Source: a virus. From it: DNA of 22,041 nt. Of this stretch, positions 3,640 through 22,041 are shown piece by piece. Where the stretch lies: positions 1-22,041 of the IMG/VR virus record IMGVR_UViG_3300024517_000121. One strand, given 5' to 3'. Numbering within the stretch: the stretch's first letter is position 1; each line of letters begins with the position of its first letter. The notes beneath the pieces are model-generated. The model did not search any database. It was given only the letters and a program-made list of their open reading frames with translations, and was not told the DNA's origin. Made by a program: the position numbers and the translations under genes.

Positions 3640-4044
3640 TTAATATCCCTCAATATTTAATCTTACCCGCATATTTAATTCTTCATAAGATAAATCTCCT
3701 GCTTCATGGGCAGTTTTAAGTAGTGCGGCTAACTCTGTTTTCTCTGCCGCAATTTCATCAGCAGTTTTATCTACTAGATAGAAATTCTCTTCAGTTCCAT
3801 TATCTCTATCCACTTTCTTAGTAGTCATACATGCACCCATTAAAACCTCTGTCCTAGTCACTTCTCTTGCTGGCGCTCTAGTAAACGCAGAACCATTCCA
3901 TGTCGCACCAATCTCACAATTAACACGAAAATCAACAAGGCTTTCACCAGCATTAGGCCACTCTGTTTTACTTTCCTCAATCGCACATACGTTGAGAACC
4001 AGTCCATCACTATCTCTTACTATTGCTTTACTTACTACTGCCAT
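3640..4044 (-). CDS. Small protein after the glycine-rich adhesins, possible fibre accessory
   Basis: The protein has 134 residues if started at the ATG at 4044; a GTG at 4050 is in frame but sits against its only upstream purine run. Residues 5-60 have the pattern of a small beta domain, with AIVRDSDGLVLNVC and then GATWNGSAFTRAP, a strand-turn-strand motif common in small proteins encoded next to phage tail fibre genes. The rest is helical (TADEIAAEKTELAALLKTA near 90-110). The short protein at 9580-9795 shares the feel of the first half (VNMINYEE, then AGTYNPSTDKF). A role as fibre assembly factor or small virion protein is inferred from this resemblance and from its place straight after three adhesin genes. 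I do not recognise a defined family. Confidence 0.65.
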   Translation of the reverse strand: MAVVSKAIVRDSDGLVLNVCAIEESKTEWPNAGESLVDFRVNCEIGATWNGSAFTRAPAREVTRTEVLMGACMTTKKVDRDNGTEENFYLVDKTADEIAAEKTELAALLKTAHEAGDLSYEELNMRVRLNIEGY

Positions 4045-4050
4045 ACTCAC

Positions 4051-5037
4051 CTACCAACTAAATATTCGTACTTCTCCACGCCCACCATCGCCGCCGTCTC
4101 CGCCAGCCGCACCAGAACCACCGCCATGCCCATGATAGGAACCGCCCCCGCCCCCACCGCCGGGTACTCCACCGTTGCCACCGTCAGTTTGGACTACGGC
4201 ATAACCCCCACCACCGCCGTCTCCACATCCGTAACCAGTTCGTGATTTACCATCGCTACCTGTAGTGCTACCAGAAGTTCCAATTGCTCCTCCTCCCCCA
4301 GCTACGTAACTTCCAAACGAGCCGCCTATTGAGGCGTGAGCGCCACCAGCACCGCCTCCAAAAATACTTGAGCCGCCAGTTCCACTATATCTACCTGCAC
4401 CACCGCCCCCACCGTATTCAGCGTTAGAGCCATTTGTCATGGGTACTGCGCCCCAAGCACCTTCACCGCCAGCAGAATCGCCAGTGGTAGTCCCACCACC
4501 CGAAGTTGTACGGCTAGCATATGTAGGTGTCCCACCAGCACCGCCAGCTGTAGTATTCACGCCATAGCTTCCAGAGGCTCCATCAGTGCCAGTGCCCCCT
4601 GTTCCGCCTCCACCTCCACCTGAGCCGGGCGAGTTGTCATTATTCGTACCACCCTTTCCACCGCCATATGCTTTGAGAATATAGTCACCGGATGGAATCT
4701 GGACAGAGGATGTGTTGCCAGTAGTGCCAGCACCGCCTTCTGTTCCGTTGTTGCCCGTACCGCCTGAAGCAGTTGCTCCAACTACCACAGCTAATGTTGC
4801 TCCAACTGCTTCAACCGCAAACCATCCACGAGCGCAAGCTCCACCGCCCCCACTTCCGCCACCATCATTTCCACATCCCGGTGAAGAACCACCACCGCCT
4901 ATCGCCTCAATAAATATCTTTGTGTGTCCAAGTGGTGCGTTCCATGTTCCATTAGATATAAATACTTCAACATTAGGTTTTTCCTTAATTAGTCCAGAAG
5001 AATTGGGGTCATTATTAGCTGATACTAAAGCACCCAT
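4051..5037 (-). CDS. Glycine-rich adhesin-like protein, third of a tandem set
   Basis: This 328-residue protein is largely glycine and serine after a 35-residue lead. It has the pattern of the phage glycine-rich domain family (Gly_rich_2 type): a F-I-S-N-G-T-W-N-A-P start near residue 26, a short strand IFIEAIGGGGS, then glycine runs. Shared landmarks with its two upstream neighbours are NAEYGGGGG, GGSSIFGGG, a YGCGDGGGGG motif near 270 and a closing GGRGEVRI. Such proteins are exposed tips of fibres, where loops between polyglycine helices contact the host receptor, as in T-even gp38. The ATG at 5037 lies 13 bases inside the previous gene, and its site GGGGAGGTG is five bases upstream. Location on the tail or the head is not shown. 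Confidence 0.8.
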   Translation of the reverse strand: MGALVSANNDPNSSGLIKEKPNVEVFISNGTWNAPLGHTKIFIEAIGGGGSSPGCGNDGGGSGGGGACARGWFAVEAVGATLAVVVGATASGGTGNNGTEGGAGTTGNTSSVQIPSGDYILKAYGGGKGGTNNDNSPGSGGGGGGTGGTGTDGASGSYGVNTTAGGAGGTPTYASRTTSGGGTTTGDSAGGEGAWGAVPMTNGSNAEYGGGGGAGRYSGTGGSSIFGGGAGGAHASIGGSFGSYVAGGGGAIGTSGSTTGSDGKSRTGYGCGDGGGGGYAVVQTDGGNGGVPGGGGGGGSYHGHGGGSGAAGGDGGDGGRGEVRIFSW

Positions 5038-6032
5038 ATACGCACCTCCCCTCTCGCACCTTTGCCGCCAGCGCCGCCCGGGTCACCATTTCCCATACCA
5101 CCGCCACCACCGCCAGCGCCGGGCGTACCGCCGTCACCGCCAGCACCACCAACAAAATCACCAGCCGCCGAATTTTGAACTCCAGCGCCACCGCCTCCAC
5201 CGTCTCCGCATCCATAGAGCCTCGATGTCCCAGCGGTTCCAGCACCAGCCGCCCCACCTATTATTGAACTGCCAGCCGCTCCGCCTGTTCCTACCGTATA
5301 TGAGTTCCATGCTCCACCAGCACGACCGTGTTGTGCACCTCCGTTACTTCCACCGGAGCCACCACCACCAGCAGCAAAGATAGAGCTACCACCTTCCATA
5401 GCGTTACCAGTGGCAGTTCCCCCGCCACCGCCTCCACCATATTCGGCATTACCACCTACGGCTCCACTTCCACCGTAGCCACCTTCACCACCTGATGAGT
5501 TACCACTTGCAGTCCTTCCGGCAACAGTAGGCTTACCACCTGCTCCACCAGTAGAGCTAGAAGCATCAGTACCAATAGTCCCTGTGCCTCCACCTCCACC
5601 GCCGCCAGTGATATCATTTGCAATAGACCCTTCGCCCCCAGCAAACGCACTGAGAGTCATATTCCCATATCCAGATGTTGAAGCAGTTCCAACTATAGAA
5701 GAATTATTGCCAGTATTCCCCGCAGTAGCCGCGGCTCCTCCAGCAACTTCTGCACCTACAGTGACGTTGAGGGCAGTTATTCCAGCGGTAGCCATATGAG
5801 AAATTGAATACATTCCCCATGCAAAGGCTCCACCGCCTCCTCCACCGCCGCCATCAAAGTTGCCACTACTACCACCAGCACCTGATCCACCACCGCCAAT
5901 GACCTCGCAGTAGAGCATGGTGTAACTGGCTGGAATAGTCCATGCGGAATTAGAAGCTGTAAACCTGAACAGTCTCCAATCGCCTGTTAATCCAGACGCA
6001 CCTAAATCACTGCTATGCACTAATCCACTCAT
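5025..6032 (-). CDS. Glycine-rich adhesin-like protein, second of a tandem set
   Basis: This 335-residue protein is a paralogue of its two neighbours. A lead of about 30 residues is followed by FTASNSAWTIPASY and the strand MLYCEVIGGGGSG, then by long glycine-rich stretches. The shared landmarks NAEYGGGGGGG, GGSSIFAAGGGG, LYGCGDGGGGG and GARGEVRIWVL occur in the same order, but the segments between them differ from those of the neighbours in length and sequence. This pattern of fixed frame and variable segment fits receptor-binding loops. The start lies just after the previous stop (TGATATG), with only a weak purine run upstream, so translation probably depends on coupling to the preceding gene. 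The GRGEV codons near its end supply the ribosome site of the next gene. Confidence 0.8.
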   Translation of the reverse strand: MSGLVHSSDLGASGLTGDWRLFRFTASNSAWTIPASYTMLYCEVIGGGGSGAGGSSGNFDGGGGGGGGAFAWGMYSISHMATAGITALNVTVGAEVAGGAAATAGNTGNNSSIVGTASTSGYGNMTLSAFAGGEGSIANDITGGGGGGGTGTIGTDASSSTGGAGGKPTVAGRTASGNSSGGEGGYGGSGAVGGNAEYGGGGGGGTATGNAMEGGSSIFAAGGGGSGGSNGGAQHGRAGGAWNSYTVGTGGAAGSSIIGGAAGAGTAGTSRLYGCGDGGGGGAGVQNSAAGDFVGGAGGDGGTPGAGGGGGGMGNGDPGGAGGKGARGEVRIWVL

Positions 6033-6033
6033 A

Positions 6034-7053
6034 TCACCACACCGTTATTCGTACTTCGCCTCTACCACCAGTACCACCAGCCCCACCAGACGCACCGCCT
6101 CGTCCATATTCTCCAGCAGCACCCCCACCACCGGGAGTGCCTCCATTCCCACCATTATTGCCGGGGTCAGTACCTGTAACAGAATTTCTAAGTCCTGAAC
6201 CTCCACCATCTCCGCAACCGTATACACGACTATCTCCAGTACCGCCTGTTACAACAGTACCTGTGGGAGAATCATTAGGTGCGCCACCCCCACCATTAGC
6301 ATACTGCCCCCATGAGCCACCTTCTCCACCATTTGGAGAACCCGGAGTAGCAGTCCATGCGACTCCTGACCCACCACCAGCACCATATATGGAAGAGCCT
6401 CCATCACCCTCATTTCCTCCGGCACCACCGCCACCATATTCACCGCTTCCAGCAGACTGAGCAGCGGTTTCACTGCCGTGATGCGCCCATCCACCGCCGC
6501 CACCCATTCCAGCAGCAGTATCATTTCCATTTCCAGCAGATGAAAGTAAGGCATTTACTGTTGGGTAACCACCCCGGCCACCTGCCGTGTTTGGGCTGCT
6601 TCCTGCACTTGCACTTCCAACAACTCCGGCCCCACCTGTACCGCCCCCACCAGCACCACTAGATGGGCCACCACTAGAATGACCCTTTCCTGCACCGCCT
6701 CCATAACCTTTAATAGTAAAAGTACCATCGCTAACCGAAGAAAAATTACCTGCCCCACCGTTGTTATTACCTGCGGCTCCCCCAGTTGTTCCTGCCGCAA
6801 CAACTACTGTGAGCCTTTCAGGAACTACTTCTGCTGGAAAGCGTTGGGTGAAAAATGCTCCACCACCACCTGCTCCACCATTATCACTTGTACCCCCGCC
6901 TCCACCAGCGCCACCACCACCAATTATTTCAAAATAAACCCAATTAGCGTTGGCTGGTTTTATCCATGTGCCATTAGCTATGAACCTCTGGTAGCTCTTG
7001 CCACCAACGAGTCCAGATAACAGACCGCTCGCACCGCCTATTAATTTACCCAT
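6034..7053 (-). CDS. Glycine-rich adhesin-like protein, first of a tandem set
   Basis: This 339-residue protein opens with a short helical or flexible lead (GKLIGGASGLLSGLVGG), then QRFIANGTWIKPANANWVYF and EIIGGGGAGGGG, the clearest instance in the window of the glycine-rich domain entry motif. It then carries SGEYGGGGAGG, GGSSIYGAGGGSG, VYGCGDGGGSG and GGRGEVRITVW, matching the downstream copies. The protein has few charged residues and is likely folded as packed polyglycine helices with exposed loops. The ATG at 7053 overlaps the stop of the small gene before it as TAATG; GGAG lies 11 bases upstream. It is probably the founding or most typical copy of the three, but which copy is ancestral cannot be told from the window. 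Confidence 0.8.
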   Translation of the reverse strand: MGKLIGGASGLLSGLVGGKSYQRFIANGTWIKPANANWVYFEIIGGGGAGGGGGTSDNGGAGGGGAFFTQRFPAEVVPERLTVVVAAGTTGGAAGNNNGGAGNFSSVSDGTFTIKGYGGGAGKGHSSGGPSSGAGGGGTGGAGVVGSASAGSSPNTAGGRGGYPTVNALLSSAGNGNDTAAGMGGGGGWAHHGSETAAQSAGSGEYGGGGAGGNEGDGGSSIYGAGGGSGVAWTATPGSPNGGEGGSWGQYANGGGGAPNDSPTGTVVTGGTGDSRVYGCGDGGGSGLRNSVTGTDPGNNGGNGGTPGGGGAAGEYGRGGASGGAGGTGGRGEVRITVW

Positions 7054-7394
7054 TAATCATCTTGCTCCAGATAACTAACAACAACATGTAATCCATCTGT
7101 ATCATCAGGATCACTGTCAGATTCTATCCAAAGCTCTTCACTTGCTAACAACACAATCTTTGATGTATGTTCAAAAGTAGCTTTAGCTGGAACACTCTGT
7201 TGTTCATATATATAGATAGGTGTGCCTTTACCAGATGTAGTACAAAACATATTAAATGTTTCGTCATTAGTAGCGTGAGAATTACAAACAGTCACACTTA
7301 ATATGGTGTATGTTTTGCTTGCGGCCCCATCTAGGACAGCCGAACCTGCGGTTGTCGTAATCTCAGCCCTCACATTTTTTAATACGTCTGCCAT
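7053..7394 (-). CDS. Small beta-rich virion protein between fibre and adhesin genes
   Basis: The protein has 113 residues and a compact beta-sandwich look: alternating hydrophobic strands (YTILSVTVCNSH, then PIYIYEQQSVPAKATFE, IVLLASEELWIES, LHVVVSYLE). The gene at 12290-12652 encodes a protein of similar size and strand pattern (VIGCLICNKH; VYLIKGVTIP; VVLANTSTN), including a C-N-x-H near the second strand. Small proteins of this type are common among fibre genes of marine phages and are probably virion components, perhaps trimeric caps or decoration proteins, though their job is not established. The start at 7394 has AAAGGAG six bases upstream, right after the stop of the fibre gene. The coding end overlaps the adhesin start. 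Confidence 0.75.
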   Translation of the reverse strand: MADVLKNVRAEITTTAGSAVLDGAASKTYTILSVTVCNSHATNDETFNMFCTTSGKGTPIYIYEQQSVPAKATFEHTSKIVLLASEELWIESDSDPDDTDGLHVVVSYLEQDD

Positions 7395-8821: not shown

Positions 8822-9577
8822 CTATGTATGTTTAACTGGACAACCATGATTGTGTAGATACCCATCAGTGTGCTGCCCCTCTATGTGACTACGAGATATA
8901 GCGAAGTTCTTCTGATCTTCTTCAGTTGCTATACGTATCTCATGCTCCCACTCGTCTCTTTTGAATGGGATGATTTGTATTAAGGGAGTCCCACGTTTGA
9001 TTGTTCCTCTCCAATTTTTCCTAACAAAAAATGGAAAGTTCACTATGTTCTGATATGTGTCTGTGTTAACTATGCCTGATGAAAAGTGCAACGGTATATC
9101 AGAGTTAAGGACTGGGGTGAATAGGCTGGAATATCCCGGTGGGGTTCTAATCTGCCAAGGATTATATAGTATGAATGCGTTAGGTTTATCGGCATCTTCA
9201 GTACCCGGTAAGCCTATACCTGTTTCTTCATTTACAAATCCTGCCCAAGGTCTTACATCTGCTACTGGAGATTCAAGCATTGATCTCCACTGTAGTATAG
9301 GATTATCATTCTCATCGAGACCTACAATTAGATCACGCCACATAGGTATGCAGTACCCACTTCTTAGTGTATCTAGAAATGGAATACATTTCCTGATTGT
9401 AGGTGGGTTAGGTGATATGTCTGATACGTTGTTTGTACCTGTAAGGTCTGGATATCTATGACCATTCTTATCAAATGTTGTAGGCATCTGTCTCCACCAA
9501 TCGGGTATTGTCTTTGACATTGGATGAGGATGAGGATGCCCCATTGCGGTAGGAGAACCTATAAACTCTATTAACAT
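8822..9577 (-). CDS. DUF6065-like protein of unknown function
   Basis: Started at the ATG at 9577 (AGAGGAG five bases upstream), the protein has 251 residues; in-frame codons further upstream would overlap the preceding gene. It resembles the phage and bacterial family DUF6065 by these motifs: PDWWRQMP, then IRKCIPFLDTLRSGYCIPMW, then LYNPWQIRTPPGYSSLFTP, then TDTYQNIVNFPFF, then GTPLIQIIPFKRDEW. The late GTPLIQIIPF strand recalls beta folds such as dUTPase, but no catalytic set is evident. An early HPHPHP run and a closing H-x-HGCPVKH could bind metal. The family is found in marine phage genomes without known role. It has no repeat or adhesin features and may be an auxiliary gene carried within the fibre block. 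The family name is from memory and needs a profile search. Confidence 0.65.
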   Translation of the reverse strand: MLIEFIGSPTAMGHPHPHPMSKTIPDWWRQMPTTFDKNGHRYPDLTGTNNVSDISPNPPTIRKCIPFLDTLRSGYCIPMWRDLIVGLDENDNPILQWRSMLESPVADVRPWAGFVNEETGIGLPGTEDADKPNAFILYNPWQIRTPPGYSSLFTPVLNSDIPLHFSSGIVNTDTYQNIVNFPFFVRKNWRGTIKRGTPLIQIIPFKRDEWEHEIRIATEEDQKNFAISRSHIEGQHTDGYLHNHGCPVKHT

Positions 9578-9579
9578 TA

Positions 9580-9795
9580 CTACTCCTCTGCATCTAACAT
9601 AGCCTGATACCATGCCGTAACAACAAACTTATCAGTGCTAGGATTGTATGTGCCAGCCATCATGCAGACGCCTCTATCTTCAGTACACTCTTTTATTACA
9701 TGTCCTGTGGGTGGGGTATATGAGTCTCCCTCTTCGTAGTTAATCATATTAACAATAATGTTAGTTGAGTTTTCAACTAAAGCCCATATGCTCAT
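9580..9795 (-). CDS. Small 71-residue fibre-neighbour protein
   Basis: The protein starts MSIWALVENSTNIIVNMINY and continues with a YTPPTGH turn and a GTYNPSTDKFVV hairpin. Small proteins with this W-A-L-V-x-N start and a G-x-Y/W-x-P/N-x2-x-x-F hairpin are frequent next to fibre genes in marine phages; their role is not established, and assembly or capping of fibres is a guess. The start ATG at 9795 overlaps the stop of the zinc-ribbon gene (ATGA), so its translation is probably coupled. The final codons, GAG GAG TAG, provide the ribosome site of the following DUF6065-like gene. Confidence 0.7.
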   Translation of the reverse strand: MSIWALVENSTNIIVNMINYEEGDSYTPPTGHVIKECTEDRGVCMMAGTYNPSTDKFVVTAWYQAMLDAEE

Positions 9796-9944: not shown

Positions 9945-10772
9945 CTATGCTGGATACCCTGTTATAGTTATTCTACCTGTAGCCCCTGCTCCACCGGGTT
10001 GGTAGTTTTGAGTCCAGTTACCATGTCCTCCTCCACCTCCACCGCCTCCGGGGGCTGTTCCTGCTGCACCACCCCAACCGGGATTGGTACACATATTATT
10101 GCCTTCGTAGTTTGGGCCATGAGCCTGTGATAGTATATTAGATGCGCCAGAACCCTGACCTCCAGCACCACCTATGTTTCCTGCCCCTCCAGCAAGTCCG
10201 TCATGGCTTGTATTAGTTTTGCCCCCGGCTCCTCCACCACAAGCACCAGCCTGTCCTGCTTGGTTAGGGTCACCGCCAACTCCTCCGGTAGTATTAGTAT
10301 TTCCACCTGACCCAGTGCCACCATTACCTTGGTTGTTGTTGCTTATACCATACCCACCATATCCACTACCATTATTAGCACCGTTAGCTGTTAAAGTGGC
10401 TAAACCTGTACCGGATACAGAGCTTGCAGCGTTTGCAGCTCCTACGGTTATAGTCATTGTCTCCCCAACAGTGTTACCAACAGATACAGTCCCAGTTTGT
10501 GTCGCTCCTCCACCCCCTCCACCGGGGCCGGGTGCAAGTTGAGGCCATGCACTAGCATTACCACCTGCGCCACCACCGCCAATTACGGTGTAATTAATAT
10601 TAGCTGCTCCTGCTGGTATAAGTAGGTTACTGCTACTATTGAAAGTCCAAGTAGTTTGTTCAAAAGTAACTAAATCTTGTCCATTAACACTTTGAATACT
10701 GGAAGCTGCTACCCTATTAATCTTATCAATAGAAGTTGCTCCTACACCATTTACATTTTCAATGTTTGGCAT
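9945..10772 (-). CDS. Glycine-rich adhesin-like protein with a distinct amino terminus
   Basis: The 275-residue protein begins MPNIENVNGVGATSIDKINR, a lead of the kind V-N-G-V-x2-x-S-I-x-K-I-N/L-x-V found in many phage virion proteins, and then SIQSVNGQD. Near residue 40 it enters the glycine-rich domain: TWTFNSSSNLLIPAGAANIN, then YTVIGGGGAGG. The remainder has glycine runs with intervening loops (SGYGGYGISNN; GACGGGAGGKT; GPNYEGNNMCTNPGWGG) and ends GGAGATGRITITGYPA. It shares the entry motif but not the inner landmarks of the three tandem proteins at 4051-7053, so it is a more distant relative. Two loop cysteines near residues 180 and 228 are notable. The start has AGGGGG four bases upstream, overlapping the previous stop. 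It is probably a receptor-binding protein. Confidence 0.8.
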   Translation of the reverse strand: MPNIENVNGVGATSIDKINRVAASSIQSVNGQDLVTFEQTTWTFNSSSNLLIPAGAANINYTVIGGGGAGGNASAWPQLAPGPGGGGGGATQTGTVSVGNTVGETMTITVGAANAASSVSGTGLATLTANGANNGSGYGGYGISNNNQGNGGTGSGGNTNTTGGVGGDPNQAGQAGACGGGAGGKTNTSHDGLAGGAGNIGGAGGQGSGASNILSQAHGPNYEGNNMCTNPGWGGAAGTAPGGGGGGGGHGNWTQNYQPGGAGATGRITITGYPA

Positions 10773-12289: not shown

Positions 12290-12652
12290 CTAAGTATTTT
12301 CTAAGATACACAAAAGAATATCTGCATTTGTATTACTGGCTAATACACGAATAGCATCTCCAGTATTCGTACTAGTATTTGCAAGTACAACTTTATTTCC
12401 ATTAATTATATCTAGAGAGCTTCCTGTTGGAATAGTTACTCCTTTAATTAGGTAAACATCTTCATTAGCTGCCGCTCCAACAGTTACACTAGTTTCCACA
12501 TCAATCAGCACATCTACAGTAATGTCAGCACTATGTTTATTACATATCAAACATCCTATAACTACTGTGTCACAATTAGAAGGAACCGTATATAAAGTAG
12601 TTAGAGATGTGGGAATATCGGCTAGACTTACTTTTTTAAATTCTGTTGCCAT
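12290..12652 (-). CDS. Small beta-rich virion protein following the giant fibre gene
   Basis: The protein has 120 residues with regular strands: FKKVSLADIPTSLTTLYTVP, VVIGCLICNKH, ITVDVLIDVET, DVYLIKGVTIPTGSSLDI, KVVLANTSTN, IRVLASNTNADILLCILE. This is the pattern of a small virion protein family common in cyanophages and other marine phages, which often sits beside fibre genes and is probably a jelly-roll or Ig-like decoration or fibre component. The start at 12652 has AAGGAG six bases upstream, directly after the stop of the giant fibre gene. The junction closely matches that before the 113-residue gene at 7053-7394, and both products share size and strand pattern. Confidence 0.75.
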   Translation of the reverse strand: MATEFKKVSLADIPTSLTTLYTVPSNCDTVVIGCLICNKHSADITVDVLIDVETSVTVGAAANEDVYLIKGVTIPTGSSLDIINGNKVVLANTSTNTGDAIRVLASNTNADILLCILENT

Positions 12653-12661
12653 AATTTCTCC

Positions 12662-15600
12662 TTATAAAGCTACAGACATTGCTATAGCAAAGCCTTCGTC
12701 AGCGGCCCCAATATATGTTTTTATTCTACTAGCCGCCATTTTTCTGTTTGTTCCACCAGCCCCATTATCAACAATAAATAAGTCTGCATCAACTAGAGCC
12801 TCTCCTATGTCAGTACCACCATCAATTTCTAAAGCGGCTAAATCAACCTTTCCTGCTGTACTAATAGTATTTAACTTACTATCTGCGATAGATCCAGCTA
12901 ACATAGAATTTTCTACTGAAGTTGCTTGAATTACTGCTGAGCCTGTCACATTACCAGAACCATTAAAGCTGGCAGAAGTCCAAACAACATCCCCCGTCAT
13001 TCCTATTGTTCTGCCACTAGCCAAAGCGGTAGCAGTGGTTGCATTTCCACTAACGGCTCCCGTGAATTGTGTAGAAGTTAAAATACCTGAGCTTGGATTA
13101 TATGTAAGTCCAGTATCAGTTTCTATACCTTGTGTACCTGTGGCACCATCTACAAAAGTGGGGTAAACCGTTTCATCGGTGCTATTATTTGCCACAGCTG
13201 TCACATTAGTAGCTTCTGTAGCTGTAGCCGCATTACCAGTAGCACTACCAGCACTACCTGACACGTTCCCTGTCACATTGCCCGTTAATGGCCCTGAGAA
13301 GCCCGTAGCGGTTAATACGCCTGTTCCAGCGTTATATGTTATACCCGCATCAGTTTTAGGGGCTAAATCGCCAGTAGCACTTTCAAATAAAGCGACATAA
13401 GAACTGATATCTGTTGTGTCTGCAACCGTTATAGTTGCAGGAACTATGTTTACACTACCATCAAAAGAAGTGCCTCCTATAGTTCTCGCATTTGCTAGGG
13501 TAGTGGCGGTAGCGGACAGTGCTACAGCTATATTAGCAGAGCCGTCAAAAGATGTGCCTCCGATAGTTCTAGCAGTAGCCAGTGTGGTGGCAGTAGCGGC
13601 TAAAGCAACCGCTATATTGGCAGTTCCGTCGAAGGATGTTCCTCCAATGGTTCTAGCATTAGCTAATGCTGTAGCCGTTGAAGCATTTCCTGTTAATGCT
13701 CCAGCAAAGGTAGTAGCTGTCACAGTTCCAGTGCTAGGATTATAATGGAAGTCTCCATCCGATTCTAATCCCACATTTCCTGTAGCTGAAGCATCTTCAA
13801 TAAAAGTAATAAGATTATTTTCATTGGTGCTTTCATTATCTGCTACGTTTACGTGTGTGGCATTGGTAGCAGTAGTAGCTGTGGTTGCATTACCACTTAC
13901 GGCTCCTGTAAACTGTGTAGCTGTTATTACTCCAGTACTAGGGTTATAAGTAAGTCCTGAGTCTGTCTCTGCTCCCTGTGCTCCTGAAACACCATCAATA
14001 AATACTGGATATACAGTTTCATTTGCTGTGTTATTAGCAGTAGCAGTAAACTCAGTTGCAAGTGCGGCAGTTCCTGATGTGTCTTGACTTCCTGCGGCAT
14101 TTACACCCGGAAGATTAATATTAGCAGACCCATCAAAGGATACTCCACCAATAGTTCTCGCACTAGCTAATGTAGTGGCTGTAGCGGCCAAAGCTACTGC
14201 TATATTTGCAGTCCCATCGAAGGATGTTCCTCCAATAGTCCTAGCTGTAGCTAATGCCGTGGCTGTAGAGGCATTTCCCTCTAAAGCGGCTACTATAGTA
14301 CCAGCAGTCCCTGAAAAGACTTCAGAGCTATTTGTAGCATCAGGAATAAAAGTAAACTTTCCGGTAGAATCATCAAATCCAAAGAAGCCTATCTTGGCTG
14401 CTGAACCATTATGCCATCTAAACTCTATTCCACGGTCTTTATTATCATCAGAACCGGGAGTCGAATCTCCACCTAAAGTAAAGATCGGATCATCTATAGT
14501 AACTGTAGTTGAATTAACTGTTGTAGTTGTCCCATTCACAGTTAGATTTCCAGCAGTTACGGTTCCAGTAGTTGTTATAGCCCCTGATCCAACATCTATA
14601 GAGGTAAATCCAGATGTTATAGAACCAGCATTTAATGCTCCTACAGATGTAATATTAGTTTGGGCCGCTGTTTGTAGTGTTCCTGATAATTGAGTCGCCG
14701 TTAATCGTCCTGTAGATGGGTTATAGTGGAAATCTCCATCCATTTCTAGACCATGAGTCCCAGTACCAGCACCAGCATTTTCCACAAATGGTATTAAATC
14801 GTTCTCGTTAGTACTTTCATTATCTGTAACAGTAACTTTTGTCGCACTTGTTGCAGTACCCTCCATTGTTCCATTGAAAGTAGTAGCAGTAAGGTTTCCA
14901 GTACTAGGATTATAAGATAATCCAGTATCAGTCTCTATACCCTGAGTACCTGTAGCTCCATCTACAAAGGTTAAATATACAGTCTCATTGGCTAAATTAT
15001 TTGCGGTTGCCGTAATACTCGTCGCAAGAGTGGCAGTTGCAGCATTTCCTGTAGTACTTCCAGAACTGCCAGAAGTGTCACCGGTTACATTTCCAGTTAG
15101 ATTACCTACAAAAGTAGTAGCAGTTACAGTTCCACTACTTGGGTTGTAATGGAGATTTCCATCCATCTCTAAACCATGATTACCAGTACCTGTACCTGCG
15201 TCAGCCACAAAAGCTATTAAATTATTTTCATTAGTACTTTCATTATCAGTTACTGTGACGCTCGTAGAAGTAGTAGCATTTCCAGATAAAGCACCAGTAA
15301 AGGTAGTAGAGGTAAGAACTCCAGTACTTGGGTTATAAGTTAATCCAGTATCGGACTCTAGCCCTTGACCACCTGTAGCACCGTCCACAAATATTGGGTA
15401 AACGGTTTCATCTGTACTGTTATTAGCACTAATGGTAATTGTACTAGCAGTTGGAATAGCCGCCCATGAAATATCTGTCCCATCTGATGTTAATACTGTA
15501 TCAGCACCACCTTGTCCTAATACAGCAGTAGCTCCGATGGAGTTACCATAAATAATCGAACCCCTATCTAACGCATCTAATAAATCTATTTCTGCCGCAG

Positions 15601-16834
15601 TTGCGTCAATGGCTGCTAACTTAGTAAGATCTGCTTGAACAAGTCCAGATACACCATTAAGTAAATTAATTTCTGCTGCAGTAGAATCTATGGCAGCTAG
15701 TTTAGTTAAGTCTGCTTGAACAAGACCAGAAACACCATCAAGAAGATTTAATTCAGCGGCAGTTGAAGTAACATTCGTACCACCTATATCTAATGTAGTT
15801 ACAGAAACTTCTCCAGCAATTGTCACTATACCATTAGCAACAGTAATTAAATCAGTATCGTCTGTATGACCAATAGTAGATCCATTAATAAGCACACTAT
15901 CTATATCTAATGAACCACCACTAATAAGACCTGTAGTAGTAATAGTGCTGGCTCCATTATCTATTGCACCGAATCCACTAGATATTGATCCACCAGATAA
16001 TGCCCCTACTGAAGTAATATTAGTCTGAGAAGCTGTTTGTAAAGTTCCACCTAACTGAGTAGCGGTTAATCTACCTGTTGATGGATTATAGATGAGATTT
16101 CCATCCATCTCTAATCCGTGATTACCAGTAGAAGTAGCTGCTCCTGCCACAAAAGTAATTAAATTGTCTTCATTAGTACTCTCATTATCAGTCACAGTAA
16201 CATTAGTGGAATTAGTAGCAGTACCAGAAGTATTTTGACTTCCAGCAGTATTCACACCCGGCAAATTTATATTGGCGGATCCATTGAAGGACACTCCACC
16301 AATAGTACGAGCCGTTTCTAACGTCGTAGCAGTAGTAGCATTTCCTGTTAAAGCCCCAGTAAATCCAGTAGAGGTTAAAGCACCTGTACTAGGATTATAG
16401 TGAAGATTACCGTCCATCTCTAACCCATGAGTTCCAGTAGAGGTAGCGGCATTAGCAACGAAAGTAACTAAATTATTCTCGTTAGTGCTCTCATTATCCG
16501 TGACTGTAACAGTTCCAGAGGTGGAATCAACATATGCCTTAATACTCTGTTGAGTGGCAACATGTGTGGCACTATCAGATGCCATATTGTCTTCATCTTT
16601 AACAGCACTGCCGGAAATTCCAGTATTTAATACTGGACTAGTTAAAGTTTTACTGCTTAATGTCTCAGCAACAGTATTACCAGACATTAAATTCCAAGAA
16701 TCCCCATCCCACTGATACATATCATCAGTATCAGTCTCAAAAAATCTGAGATTAGCTTGTAAACTGCCAGTAGAGAGGTTACCTCTCTGAGTTGCTGTGC
16801 CAGAAATAAAATTTCCTGCTCTATAAGTAACCAT
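12662..16834 (-). CDS. Giant modular repeat fibre protein, 1390 residues
   Basis: The protein starts at the ATG at 16834 (TAATG overlap with the stop of the gene before; GGAGG 11 bases upstream). It carries MVTYRAGNFISGTATQRG, then a DEDNMASDSATH module (residues 75-105), then ten modules each ending in a YN[PA]xxG motif. Five are type A (VTVTDNESTNENNL ... HGLEMDG) and four type B (ANNxTxETVYPxFVDGATG ... ETDTGL), with one divergent. Between them sit 27-residue repeats around AELNLLDGVSG (about 356-420), a globular insert with DNKDRGIEFRWHNGS and GFFGFDDSTGKFTF (about 780-845), and 28-residue ARTIGGTSFDG repeats. It ends with VDADLFIVDNGAGGTNRKM and SRIKTYIG, a terminal piece seen in other phage fibres. 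It is likely a long trimeric fibre; head or tail attachment is unresolved. Confidence 0.85.
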   Translation of the reverse strand: MVTYRAGNFISGTATQRGNLSTGSLQANLRFFETDTDDMYQWDGDSWNLMSGNTVAETLSSKTLTSPVLNTGISGSAVKDEDNMASDSATHVATQQSIKAYVDSTSGTVTVTDNESTNENNLVTFVANAATSTGTHGLEMDGNLHYNPSTGALTSTGFTGALTGNATTATTLETARTIGGVSFNGSANINLPGVNTAGSQNTSGTATNSTNVTVTDNESTNEDNLITFVAGAATSTGNHGLEMDGNLIYNPSTGRLTATQLGGTLQTASQTNITSVGALSGGSISSGFGAIDNGASTITTTGLISGGSLDIDSVLINGSTIGHTDDTDLITVANGIVTIAGEVSVTTLDIGGTNVTSTAAELNLLDGVSGLVQADLTKLAAIDSTAAEINLLNGVSGLVQADLTKLAAIDATAAEIDLLDALDRGSIIYGNSIGATAVLGQGGADTVLTSDGTDISWAAIPTASTITISANNSTDETVYPIFVDGATGGQGLESDTGLTYNPSTGVLTSTTFTGALSGNATTSTSVTVTDNESTNENNLIAFVADAGTGTGNHGLEMDGNLHYNPSSGTVTATTFVGNLTGNVTGDTSGSSGSTTGNAATATLATSITATANNLANETVYLTFVDGATGTQGIETDTGLSYNPSTGNLTATTFNGTMEGTATSATKVTVTDNESTNENDLIPFVENAGAGTGTHGLEMDGDFHYNPSTGRLTATQLSGTLQTAAQTNITSVGALNAGSITSGFTSIDVGSGAITTTGTVTAGNLTVNGTTTTVNSTTVTIDDPIFTLGGDSTPGSDDNKDRGIEFRWHNGSAAKIGFFGFDDSTGKFTFIPDATNSSEVFSGTAGTIVAALEGNASTATALATARTIGGTSFDGTANIAVALAATATTLASARTIGGVSFDGSANINLPGVNAAGSQDTSGTAALATEFTATANNTANETVYPVFIDGVSGAQGAETDSGLTYNPSTGVITATQFTGAVSGNATTATTATNATHVNVADNESTNENNLITFIEDASATGNVGLESDGDFHYNPSTGTVTATTFAGALTGNASTATALANARTIGGTSFDGTANIAVALAATATTLATARTIGGTSFDGSANIAVALSATATTLANARTIGGTSFDGSVNIVPATITVADTTDISSYVALFESATGDLAPKTDAGITYNAGTGVLTATGFSGPLTGNVTGNVSGSAGSATGNAATATEATNVTAVANNSTDETVYPTFVDGATGTQGIETDTGLTYNPSSGILTSTQFTGAVSGNATTATALASGRTIGMTGDVVWTSASFNGSGNVTGSAVIQATSVENSMLAGSIADSKLNTISTAGKVDLAALEIDGGTDIGEALVDADLFIVDNGAGGTNRKMAASRIKTYIGAADEGFAIAMSVAL
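13458..13690 (-). repeat. Three tandem 84-base repeats (28-residue ARTIGGTSFDG unit)
   Basis: On the plus strand the anchor CC[AG]TC[AG]AA[AG]GA[AT]GT[GT]CCTCC begins at 13458, 13542 and 13626, which gives an exact spacing of 84 bases. The unit encodes ARTIGGTSFDG followed by ANIAVALxATATTLA. Two more copies, again 84 bases apart, begin at about 14130 and 14214, and a single copy at about 16281. Confidence 0.85.
15576..15770 (-). repeat. 81-base tandem repeat (27-residue AELNLLDGVSG unit)
   Basis: The plus-strand anchor TCTGCTTGAACAAG begins at 15630 and 15711, 81 bases apart. The unit encodes GVSGLVQADLTKLAAID then TAAEINLL, with about two and a half copies. A related AELELLDGITAG occurs in the fibre gene at 7407-8735. 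This motif is common in phage fibre proteins. Confidence 0.8.
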
Positions 16835-17306
16835 TAAGCTATTTGCCTCCACTCAGGAAGTTCAAGTTCGTAAGTATGTCCACACCATAGATTAAGTATC
16901 ATAATTCCACGCTGGAAATCGTAAGTAGGGTCTGTAGCACCATCAGAGCTACCACATTCAGCACAAACTGCACCTGGAGATGTTAGTTCTACTTCAACAA
17001 TGCTACCCGCTTTCTGTATTTTAACGGCTAAAGCATTATTATTAGCATTTACCTCTTTTAGATAGAGTCTTCCCTCTTCTGCTCCGGGATCAGCAGGAGC
17101 AGCTATCTTAGCAAAATCTAAATATGTGGAGTTTATCCAATTACTGCCATTATATTGAGTGAAATTGTTGTCAGCTAAAGACGAAAACGAGGTATCATTT
17201 AATCCTGATAGAGTACCACTAACACTATCTACATAAGCCTTAATACTTTGTTGACTGGCTAGGTGAGTAGCTGAGTCTGAAGCCATATTGTCTTCATCTT
17301 TAATGG
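16521..17306 (-). repeat. Duplicated DEDNMASDSATH module across two adjacent fibre genes
   Basis: Two segments, 16521-16605 in the giant fibre gene and 17221-17306 in the gene before it, encode nearly the same stretch (KDEDNMASDSATH, then QQSIKAYVDS, then SGT). They share exact runs such as GCCATATTGTCTTCATCTTT on the plus strand. The coordinates given here span both copies. Confidence 0.8.
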
Positions 17307-18162
17307 CTGTACCTGATATTGCACTCGTATTGAGAGTAATAGCACCTGAAGAAGATATAGTAGTGGCCTTTTGGAAAGCAAAAGCCCCATCAGTCCAATC
17401 TAATTGAGAAGTTGCATTAATAGTAACATTCAGAGTGTTACTAGAATGCGTATAAAGGATTTTACCCACATCAGCGTCCGCTGCATCCCCAAAAAGTAGC
17501 GCACCTGAGGTAGGAGCAAGTATATTTATAGCCCCAGTACCACTATTCTCTATAGTTAACAGTGAAGTACCGTCAGCATTTATGCTACCTGCACTGGCTG
17601 CCCATATATGGACCAATGAATCAGGACTAGGAGCACTACTCCTTCCTATAACTACGTCTGCGGTATTCGGAACTATCCACTTTACGTCAGTACCATCAGA
17701 GGAAATATCTGCATCTGCACCACTATTTCCTAATTTAATAGAAACATTGTCAGGTAGGACAATATCACCACCAGAAAAGGTCTGAGTCACTGCTCCAGAA
17801 GAAGAACTGCTAATTTCCATTACATTTGTTAGAGTATCTCCAGTCTGAACGGACCAAACTACTTTAGAATCCTTTGTATTGGAGGTAACATCGTTAGCAG
17901 TCCAAGTCATCCTAGCAAATTCAGTCTGAGTCCCAGCTGAATTATCTAACGTATAACTTATATATCCAGCATCTCCATCAGCCGGAGTACCCCTATTACC
18001 TCCCCTAAAGACTGCTACCTGATTAGAGGAATTATCTCTAGAAGATTGGGCAATAAAAGCTGGTCCGGTCGAAGTATTCGTCATACTGATAGCGGATTCA
18101 CTATTACCGGACGTAAAAGTTTGAGGTATTACATGATGTATTTGTCTAAGTTCAACTGGCAT
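16834..18162 (-). CDS. Fibre-like protein with possible zinc-binding carboxyl end
   Basis: The 442-residue protein starts MPVELRQIHHVIPQTFTSGN and has beta-rich repeats through residue 330 (GDIVLPDNVSIKLGNSGADA; LLFGDAADADVGKILYTHSS), then a TAIKDEDNMASDSATHLASQ module also found near the start of the next gene, and a PADPGAEEGRLYLKEVN segment. The last 45 residues contain C400-x2-C403-x23-C427-x-H429 (VCAECGSS, then ILNLWCGHTYELELPEW), which could bind one zinc. The ATG at 18162 overlaps the previous stop (TAATG), with AGAGGG seven bases upstream. It is likely a virion fibre or fibre base. A metal-stabilised end is known for some fibre tips, but zinc binding here is inferred from residue spacing alone. 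Confidence 0.7.
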   Translation of the reverse strand: MPVELRQIHHVIPQTFTSGNSESAISMTNTSTGPAFIAQSSRDNSSNQVAVFRGGNRGTPADGDAGYISYTLDNSAGTQTEFARMTWTANDVTSNTKDSKVVWSVQTGDTLTNVMEISSSSSGAVTQTFSGGDIVLPDNVSIKLGNSGADADISSDGTDVKWIVPNTADVVIGRSSAPSPDSLVHIWAASAGSINADGTSLLTIENSGTGAINILAPTSGALLFGDAADADVGKILYTHSSNTLNVTINATSQLDWTDGAFAFQKATTISSSGAITLNTSAISGTAIKDEDNMASDSATHLASQQSIKAYVDSVSGTLSGLNDTSFSSLADNNFTQYNGSNWINSTYLDFAKIAAPADPGAEEGRLYLKEVNANNNALAVKIQKAGSIVEVELTSPGAVCAECGSSDGATDPTYDFQRGIMILNLWCGHTYELELPEWRQIA

Positions 18163-19926: not shown

Positions 19927-20271
19927 CTATCGTCCCCATATAGCTCCGATTATTCGTCCATTTCCCTGGTTAGCTCTAATAACTGATATATCTCCAGTTA
20001 TACTGATGTCAGTTTCAGTATATCCAGTACCAGAAGGTAGCAACATCGAACTTTCATCAGCAGTAGCAGTACCATTAAAACTTATATATAGATCATTCTT
20101 ATCCACTACTAATGTAATTCTATGTGCCTCCTCCATATAGTCAGATACTGTCAGTACTGTAGTAGCATCCTCACTAGATGTAGTTAACGAAAAGGGCTTA
20201 AACGCCGTATACGGCTGACTAAGGTCCATAATTGACCTAAGACCGTACGTACTTCCTGACTGAATCGACAT
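19927..20271 (-). CDS. Small beta-rich virion protein, second of a paralogous pair
   Basis: The protein has 114 residues and aligns without gaps to the product of the gene just upstream over its last 97 residues; by eye about 56 positions are identical. Shared landmarks are MEEAxRIT, DLYxxF, SSM/TSM-L-x-P-x-GTGYTE, GxISVxRA and NGRIxGxxWGR. The start at 20271 overlaps the previous stop as TAATG. No known family is recognised. Size, beta-rich pattern and position near the capsid gene suggest a capsid decoration or small fibre protein; this is inference. Confidence 0.75.
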   Translation of the reverse strand: MSIQSGSTYGLRSIMDLSQPYTAFKPFSLTTSSEDATTVLTVSDYMEEAHRITLVVDKNDLYISFNGTATADESSMLLPSGTGYTETDISITGDISVIRANQGNGRIIGAIWGR

Positions 20272-20600
20272 TATCTACCCCAGACTCCACCACGGATACG
20301 ACCATTAGTAGTACCTGCCCGCATAACCGAAATAACTCCAGTTACTTGAATTTTCTCTTCAGTGTATCCAGTACCAGCAGGTATTAACATAGAAGTACCG
20401 TCACTAGTGGCAGCACTTCCAAAATTTACGTATAGATCACCTAATTCGACTACAAAAGTAATTCGATTAGCCTCTTCCATCACAGTAGAAGTATCTAAAA
20501 CAGTGGTGGCAGTACCATCACTAGTAGTTTTAGTGAATCCACGAAATGAAGTTAACGGCTGTTCGAGTTCAATTTGGGTCCTAATCTTCGGTGCTGCCAT
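20271..20600 (-). CDS. Small beta-rich virion protein, first of a paralogous pair
   Basis: The protein has 109 residues when started at the ATG at 20600, five bases after AGGGAG; a second ATG at 20603 and a GTG at 20606 stand immediately upstream and are too close to that site. It is the tandem paralogue of the following gene (MEEANRIT, DLYVNF, TSMLIPAGTGYTE, NGRIRGGVWGR). Its first bases lie inside the end of the 71-residue gene before it, so the two are probably translated in a coupled way. Function is unknown; a virion surface role is inferred from position and duplication. Confidence 0.75.
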   Translation of the reverse strand: MAAPKIRTQIELEQPLTSFRGFTKTTSDGTATTVLDTSTVMEEANRITFVVELGDLYVNFGSAATSDGTSMLIPAGTGYTEEKIQVTGVISVMRAGTTNGRIRGGVWGR

Positions 20601-20796
20601 CATCACTCCCTGAAAGCTTAGTTAGGGTCTTTGGGTCCACGTAGAAAAGCTTAGGAGTCCCAATATGAGGATGAGCGAATCCAACTATAGGTAATTCATA
20701 ATTATTAAAATGAATTGCACCAAAATTGTACTTACCTATATTCTTTCTACGGACACGAAGGCTAAAATATGAGGCCAACCGTCCTAATAAACTCAT
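20581..20796 (-). CDS. Unknown 71-residue protein
   Basis: No family is recognised. The protein has a basic start (SLLGRLASYFSLRVRRKN), a central NFGAIHFNNYELPIVGFAHP segment and an acidic end (SGSDDGSTED). No membrane segment or cysteines are seen. The start at 20796 follows GGAGG by four bases and lies one base below the stop of the gene before, so it belongs to the same transcript. The last codons overlap the start of the next gene by about 20 bases. Confidence 0.65.
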   Translation of the reverse strand: MSLLGRLASYFSLRVRRKNIGKYNFGAIHFNNYELPIVGFAHPHIGTPKLFYVDPKTLTKLSGSDDGSTED

Positions 20797-21629: not shown

Positions 21630-22041
21630 TTAGGCGTTAAGGTCAGTGATCTTGGCGTGTGCGTCCAAACGTAAAGCTCTTAATTCACCTATGGTGTAGA
21701 AGAGTCCACGTAGAACGAACGCATTTGCCTGGAAGAAATCTCTGTTGTCGATATACTGCGTTGGGGCAGCTATAGCGAGTTCCAAATATCTCGTATCCAT
21801 GACATATACGTTAGAACCAAGGTTGGCATCAGCAGCAGTGAAAGCACCCTGACAATCAGGATCAACAATTACTGGGATACCCCTATAGGTAGCTACCTGG
21901 AAACCAGCATGGGAGCCGGGTAGAGTGGATTCGTCTCCAACTTTGACTACGAACTCACCCCAGTCCAGATACCGTTGCTGGGCCTGTAGCAATGAAGAGA
22001 GTCGGTCGAACTGGTCATAACCCATCAGAATTACATCAGGA
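21630..22041 (-). CDS. Major capsid protein, carboxyl end (5' part beyond window)
   Basis: The frame is open to the right edge, so only the last 136 or so residues are present. An ATG at 22025 is internal: the codons before it read PDVIL in frame. The visible part reads LMGYDQFDRLSSLLQ, then FQVATYRGIPVIVDPDCQG, NVYVMDTRYLELAIAAP, then TQYIDNRDFFQANAFVLRGL. The G-I-P-V-I-x-D-P strand, followed by a V-Y-V-M-D-T-R-Y-L-E strand and a closing L-R-G-L/M-x-x-I-G-E-L strand, is the P-domain/A-domain pattern of HK97-fold capsid proteins. It forms the icosahedral shell. A strong hairpin follows the stop. Whether the host is bacterial or archaeal cannot be decided from this piece. Confidence 0.75.
   Translation of the reverse strand, partial: PDVILMGYDQFDRLSSLLQAQQRYLDWGEFVVKVGDESTLPGSHAGFQVATYRGIPVIVDPDCQGAFTAADANLGSNVYVMDTRYLELAIAAPTQYIDNRDFFQANAFVLRGLFYTIGELRALRLDAHAKITDLNA

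Follow-up and report, generated by a model that had tools for sequence, protein, structure and literature searches.

The locus described here raises the question of why a virus would carry three similar glycine-rich adhesin genes in direct succession, i.e. whether their products represent (i) three independent adhesins that widen the host range, (ii) redundant copies that exchange sequence with each other or (iii) parts of a single structure. The window, by which we mean the whole stretch of DNA analysed, is a viral record of 22,041 bases (IMGVR_UViG_3300024517_000121), the recognisable genes of which are carried by the minus strand. The three adhesin genes are abutting open reading frames (ORFs), here called slots 1, 2 and 3 in transcription order (Table 1), and their products exhibit a pairwise identity of 45–53%. 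The motifs EYGGGG, GGSSI[FY], YGCGDGGG and GEVRI, which an earlier note on this DNA had described as landmarks in a fixed order, were indeed present in all three ORFs, while the non-glycine middle regions of the window copies are only 0.25–0.34 identical among themselves, and no DNA match of at least 90 nt at 75% identity or more was detected between the copies. The genes of slots 2 and 3 overlap by 13 nt, as they do in the related arrays of L083, L084 and G014, and the LVSAN tag of slot 3 is common to slot 3 of these same relatives.

Table 1. Features of the adhesin module in the window.
Feature	Position	Strand	Remarks
Small beta-type protein, 113 aa, first gene of the module	7053..7394	-	Precedes slot 1 directly
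Slot 1 glycine-rich adhesin, 339 aa	6034..7053	-	PF21722 E 7e-8; PHROG 863; array profile E 1e-69
Slot 1 anchor, residues 1-43	6925-7053	-	Glycine-rich domain follows the anchor
Slot 2 glycine-rich adhesin, 335 aa	5025..6032	-	PF21722 E 5e-7; AlphaFold model; PDB fold matches
Slot 2 anchor, residues 1-44	5901-6032	-	
Slot 3 glycine-rich adhesin, 328 aa	4051..5037	-	PHROG 863 E 2e-15
Slot 3 anchor, residues 1-45	4903-5037	-	Bears the slot 3 LVSAN tag
Module-closing protein, 136 aa, candidate fibre-assembly chaperone	3640..4050	-	Beta N-part, helical C-part

Homologues were gathered by means of a DNA pattern for [YF]GCGDGG, the flanking small proteins and the N-terminal anchors, since tblastn probably masks the low-complexity adhesin sequence; a scan with the slot 2 anchor pattern returned only known contigs, together with others lacking the motif in a glycine-rich ORF. 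Landmarks were assessed by residue class in 17 homologues from other contigs (window rows excluded), because shared glycine alone would inflate identity. In non-glycine columns the landmarks displayed an identity of 0.57 versus 0.28 elsewhere (0 of 5000 permutations), and in glycine columns the values were 0.88 and 0.74, respectively. Columns with any gap amounted to 0% of the landmarks versus 53% of the remainder. Since aligning the sequences by its nature favours landmark columns without gaps, the size of this contrast is to be read with some reserve. Per-column diversity, which had been suggested as a check, is thus lower in the landmarks than in the remainder of the protein, and neither equal divergence of landmarks and loops nor a lack of variation among related viruses was found when looked for. 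The description of the intervening segments as strongly differing holds in so far as the sequence outside the landmarks is variable; it requires amendment in that one tip type is retained at high amino acid identity across saturated synonymous sites (see below), and the segments between the landmarks are thus not hypervariable in every case.

With regard to family, all three adhesins match PHROG 863 (tail fibre assembly), and the products of slots 1 and 2 pass the curated cut-off of the Gly_rich_2 family PF21722 (24.3 bits) at 33.1 and 30.5 bits, respectively; slot 2 of L083 scores 25.6 bits, and slot 3 of the window gave no match to PF21722 at E 0.01. The AlphaFold model of the slot 2 product, built from a 20-sequence alignment (pLDDT 85.9, pTM 0.87), displays strands close to the two termini, separated by a long, irregular glycine-rich stretch, and the adhesin is accordingly predicted to comprise a beta-sandwich (TNF-like) base and a glycine-rich distal part. 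A Foldseek search of the PDB with this model identified Bxb1 gp33 (9d93, E 2e-8), the Pam3 fibre (7ypx, E 4e-4) and, more weakly, the glycine-rich domains of ALK/LTK, while query-normalised TM scores of 0.36–0.41 to solved relatives indicate similar rather than identical structures. Furthermore, the adhesin sequence profile finds Bxb1 gp33 at E 7e-11, the significant alignment being confined to profile positions 33–170. By fold, the model combines the beta-sandwich base and glycine-rich extension of fibre tips of the Pam3/Bxb1 type; it is devoid of an N-terminal helix, and the helical shaft that Pam3-type proteins carry at their own N-terminus is absent, the core starting at residue 44–46 in the window copies. 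S16 gp38 was considered as a direct template and rejected: 6F45 was absent from the PDB matches (48 at E ≤ 10), the model lacks N-terminal helices, and the gp38-type architecture, in which a beta-helix bears the polyglycine sandwich and helices at the N-terminus serve for attachment, was not recovered. Judged from the model, the closest relative is of the Pam3/Bxb1 type and not S16 gp38. A fourth, more distant Gly_rich_2 protein (9945-10772, minus strand; 275 aa; PF21722 E 1e-8) with a different N-terminus is encoded upstream of the array and escaped detection with the array profile at a threshold of E 1e-8.

That the three proteins are receptor-binding tips with a variable distal part, as the earlier note had proposed, is well supported by the fold (Bxb1 gp33, Pam3 and ALK/LTK), the profiles (PF21722 and PHROG 863) and the per-column divergence. 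Its additional suggestion of packed polyglycine helices is reasonable given the polyproline II (PPII) bundles described for Bxb1 gp33 and Pam3 in a later paper, which likens them to S16 gp38 (PMC13243192), with the reservation that gp38 itself is not the closest relative. Pam3 gp24 is a trimer of a TNF-like domain and a glycine-rich tip that is conserved near the base and variable distally, and is assembled by the chaperone gp25 (PMC9608196). The array resembles gp24/gp25 (PDB 7YPX, 7YFW) in its predicted TNF-like base, glycine-rich distal lattice, variable tip and adjoining small gene (a chaperone in Pam3, a candidate here), whereas gp24 is a homotrimer encoded by one gene with its own helical shaft and the window holds three shaft-less genes with slot-specific anchors. 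Bxb1 gp33, the 'tail wing brush' of a mycobacteriophage (PDB 9D93, an entry with three chains) and the closest solved relative by profile and fold, is one gene product, unlike the window array. S16 gp38 (T-even-like, PDB 6F45) similarly presents glycine-rich motifs between hypervariable segments at the distal tip, with variability tied to host range (PMC6851490), but possesses a beta-helix middle domain and conserved tryptophans that dock a single copy on gp37. The adhesins of haloarchaeal Hafunaviridae are likewise glycine-rich, lie in a hypervariable region, are followed by a small gene and are implicated in host range (PMC8651126), although they are encoded by a single gene and act on archaeal hosts. 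Finally, gp35/gp36/gp37 of the mycobacteriophage Mysterious, encoded by three consecutively numbered genes, form a heterotrimeric fibre-like baseplate part (PMC13252515, preprint), yet this is a baseplate element that is not described as glycine-rich.

The adhesin triplet is part of a recurring unit consisting of a small beta protein, the three adhesins and a protein of ~135 aa. Homologues of the small protein (38–79% identity) are encoded just ahead of the adhesin array in L083, L084, G014, G009, G013 and G015, while homologues of the module-closing protein (43–48% identity) directly follow slot 3 in L084 and G014, both of which retain the complete gene order of the window; in L083, G009, G013 and G015 the small protein and the first adhesins are followed by the end of the contig. 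Beyond the module, the contigs G014, G009 and G015 have no detectable protein in common with the window and its close relatives, save for one weak fibre match, and the module therefore occurs on unrelated viral backbones. The model of the 136-aa protein (pLDDT 74) displays a two-part layout like that of a fibre chaperone; its fold search gave no significant match, whether to tail fibre assembly (Tfa) chaperones or to Pam3 gp25 (ranked 13th, E 2.2), nor was a Pfam or PDB sequence match obtained, and the protein is regarded as a candidate fibre-assembly chaperone. In L096 (149-3562), the module-closing protein is located near a tyrosine integrase-like gene, which suggests that the cassette is also present in temperate phages; two scans of genome contigs did not reveal a provirus. 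Searches of cultured phages with the adhesin, the small protein and the downstream protein yielded no match, the anchor search matched only cyanophage proteins with short shafts of their own, and, as far as collection searches could show, arrays of this type are absent. The small proteins of 7053-7394 and 12290-12652 (minus strand) are distantly alike (19% identity), each preceding or situated among fibre-type genes, and possibly represent a recurring fibre accessory.

The number of copies per array proved to be constant. In an alignment-profile search, nine of nine distinct complete shaft-less arrays (the window, L084, G014, G012, G008, L111, L115, L116 and L118, with L111 represented by three identical records) carry exactly three copies, although the searches were seeded from arrays and the nine belong to few clades, and are thus not independent. 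The glycine core starts at residue 36–50 in array members. Profile matches in which the core starts at residue 118 or later, i.e. behind an N-terminal shaft, are all single (L015, L027, L028, L120 and relatives, L127, L129, L130, L133 and L134), and related cyanophage proteins with short shafts are found in one or two copies. At the same place, L087, which derives from a 141-kb relative (a sister) of the window's virus whose adjacent structural genes are 72–81% identical to those of the window, contains three consecutive ORFs with MSGLV/MSALV-like N-termini and C-parts that are not glycine-rich; this virus retains the three slots with another C-terminal domain.

Nor are the slots interchangeable. 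N-termini of the window-type clade are 0.57 identical within the same slot versus 0.37 between slots (0 of 2000 permutations), with little slot signal in the middle region, while in a second clade, comprising six viruses, slot specificity extends to the N-terminal, stem and distal regions (0/1000 for each; C-terminus 63/1000). In a three-virus SGLV subset of the window's clade (complete arrays), slot specificity was not significant (144/1000), and the N-terminus of slot 1 of the window is nearest to slot 2 of its relatives; the slot assignment of the window is consequently based largely on the order of the genes, the conserved overlap and the slot 3 tag. Near-identical segments are nearly all common to the same slot of different viruses, and none were seen between copies within one virus. 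Moreover, distal identity in the second clade is 0.23 for copies within a genome, 0.22 for other slots of different viruses and 0.31 for the same slot. The suggestion that three redundant copies exchange sequence with each other is not supported in view of this same-slot sharing, the slot-specific N-termini and the fixed count of three. Slots of the two main clades do not correspond, and the tree splits these clades at 0.999, which suggests, as the simplest reading, two separate triplications that each stopped at three; concerted evolution is a possible alternative cause of this appearance.

Comparison of close relatives indicates how the tips change. L084 and G014, which are closely related at the module, exhibit DNA homology from the small gene into slot 1 as far as approximately codon 86, where it is lost, returning 38 nt before the slot 1 stop; it is continuous throughout slot 2, and in slot 3 extends to approximately codon 92, is lost and returns 45 nt before the stop. 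Identity at fourfold sites is 0.92 (slot 1) and 0.73 (slot 3) in the anchors versus 0.24–0.26 distally, and slot 1 of G013 and G015 displays the same pattern of loss and return. The distal segment is thus replaced between viruses while both ends are kept. Furthermore, slot 2 of L083 combines a slot 2 anchor and slot 2 C-terminus (RIWAW) with, at residues 159–255, the tip of slot 1 of G014 at 88% amino acid identity. Since the fourfold sites of these tips are only 37% identical, the tip type crossed slots and unrelated backbones long ago and has subsequently been maintained by purifying selection, which speaks against simply hypervariable loops. Exchange by recombination, which had been anticipated, is therefore upheld for the distal segment between viruses, including one cross-slot case, but not for exchange from copy to copy or for redundancy of the three; a widening of the host range may nevertheless apply.

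From these results we lean, with modest confidence, towards the view that the three genes encode three non-equivalent subunits of one tailed-bacteriophage fibre tip, probably a heterotrimer, with distal exchange. Each protein would consist of a short slot-specific N-terminal anchor of ~45 residues, a beta-sandwich (TNF-like) base to which strands from both the N- and the C-terminus contribute, and, distally, a glycine-rich lattice that would touch the host with its outer turns. Within one cap, each of the three would have a fixed position not equivalent to the others, and the cap would most likely be a heterotrimer where the shaft-bearing Pam3 gp24 forms a homotrimer; the anchors may dock this tip on a separate fibre protein, and the downstream 136-aa protein may aid folding. 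Host recognition would change as recombination between viruses replaces distal segments, the crossovers falling in the conserved ends, such that any slot could be re-tipped without disturbing assembly. It is the homotrimeric relative, the copy rule, the slot-specific anchors and the single closing gene that together favour a heterotrimer, a type of assembly for which gp35/gp36/gp37 of Mysterious offer a precedent. A more far-reaching version is offered tentatively, its chances being somewhat below even: an obligate shaft-less heterotrimer from three tandem genes that arose at least two times, with one anchor per position and three receptor specificities per tip, each horizontally replaceable across unrelated viruses.

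That the copies are independent, each forming its own homotrimeric or monomeric tip, so that three would widen the host range as the earlier note had suggested, is considered rather unlikely. Tips within one virus do differ strongly and can move between slots, a single glycine-rich adhesin sets host range in haloarchaeal viruses (PMC8651126), and three copies could serve three separate fibres; such independence would not, however, predict exactly three copies in all complete arrays of several clades, the three slots of L087 with another C-domain, or slot-specific anchors. A recent duplication with recombination between copies within a genome, akin to a reservoir for antigenic variation, would draw on tandem paralogues with conserved glycine tracts that could recombine, and one cross-slot tip transfer was seen, albeit between viruses. 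It is very improbable given that, in the second clade, copies from the same genome resemble each other no more than copies from different slots of different viruses do, and that copies of one virus, including those of the window at the DNA level, lack near-identical segments. Similarly, there is little prospect that these are glycine-rich structural or decoration proteins (antifreeze-, PE_PGRS- or collagen-like) without receptor binding. Glycine-rich sequence of low complexity is indeed common and the non-viral ALK/LTK domains have the same fold, but the adhesins belong to a tail-fibre PHROG, their closest solved relatives form part of the tail tip of one phage and the fibre tip of another, and the array sits in a block of fibre-like genes with a distal part that is replaced modularly.

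The usual picture of a phage fibre tip is that of a homotrimer or a single cap with one specificity. The adhesins are receptor-binding domains of a known kind, but newly arranged. If true, a three-gene tip with fixed positions would confer three specificities on one phage tip while assembly remains constant, and would account for the trading of host-recognition parts among unrelated phages. The copy rule (one copy with a shaft, three without) provides a simple prediction for any virome, while the slot-specific anchors are handles by which uncultivated viruses with a common receptor may be linked; a tip type that is kept at the protein level despite saturated synonymous sites is a candidate for a shared receptor.

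As regards the host, an archaeal virus was considered, as structural proteins resemble those of haloarchaeal tailed viruses. The 141-kb relative, however, encodes a RecA of bacterial type, a DNA polymerase of family A and a protein resembling the clamp loader of DNA polymerase III, by which a bacterial host is favoured. The SU10-type major capsid protein encoded in the window (21630-22025, minus strand) and in L108 (5002-6306) has its closest cultured relatives, albeit distant, among haloarchaeal viruses, while the same genome (G002) possesses bacterial-type replication genes. Situated among the fibre genes, a 263-aa PHROG 7084 protein (8822-9613, minus strand) has counterparts of ~30% identity in haloarchaeal tailed viruses and in some cyanophages. 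The ORFs at 12662-16852 and 16834-18162 (minus strand) encode large fibre-like proteins that contain internal repeats, and segments of these recur rearranged in L083 and L087, which suggests mosaic fibre genes. Between the capsid and fibre genes, two adjacent ORFs (19927-20271 and 20271-20606, minus strand) encode visibly similar small proteins of 114 and 111 aa, respectively.
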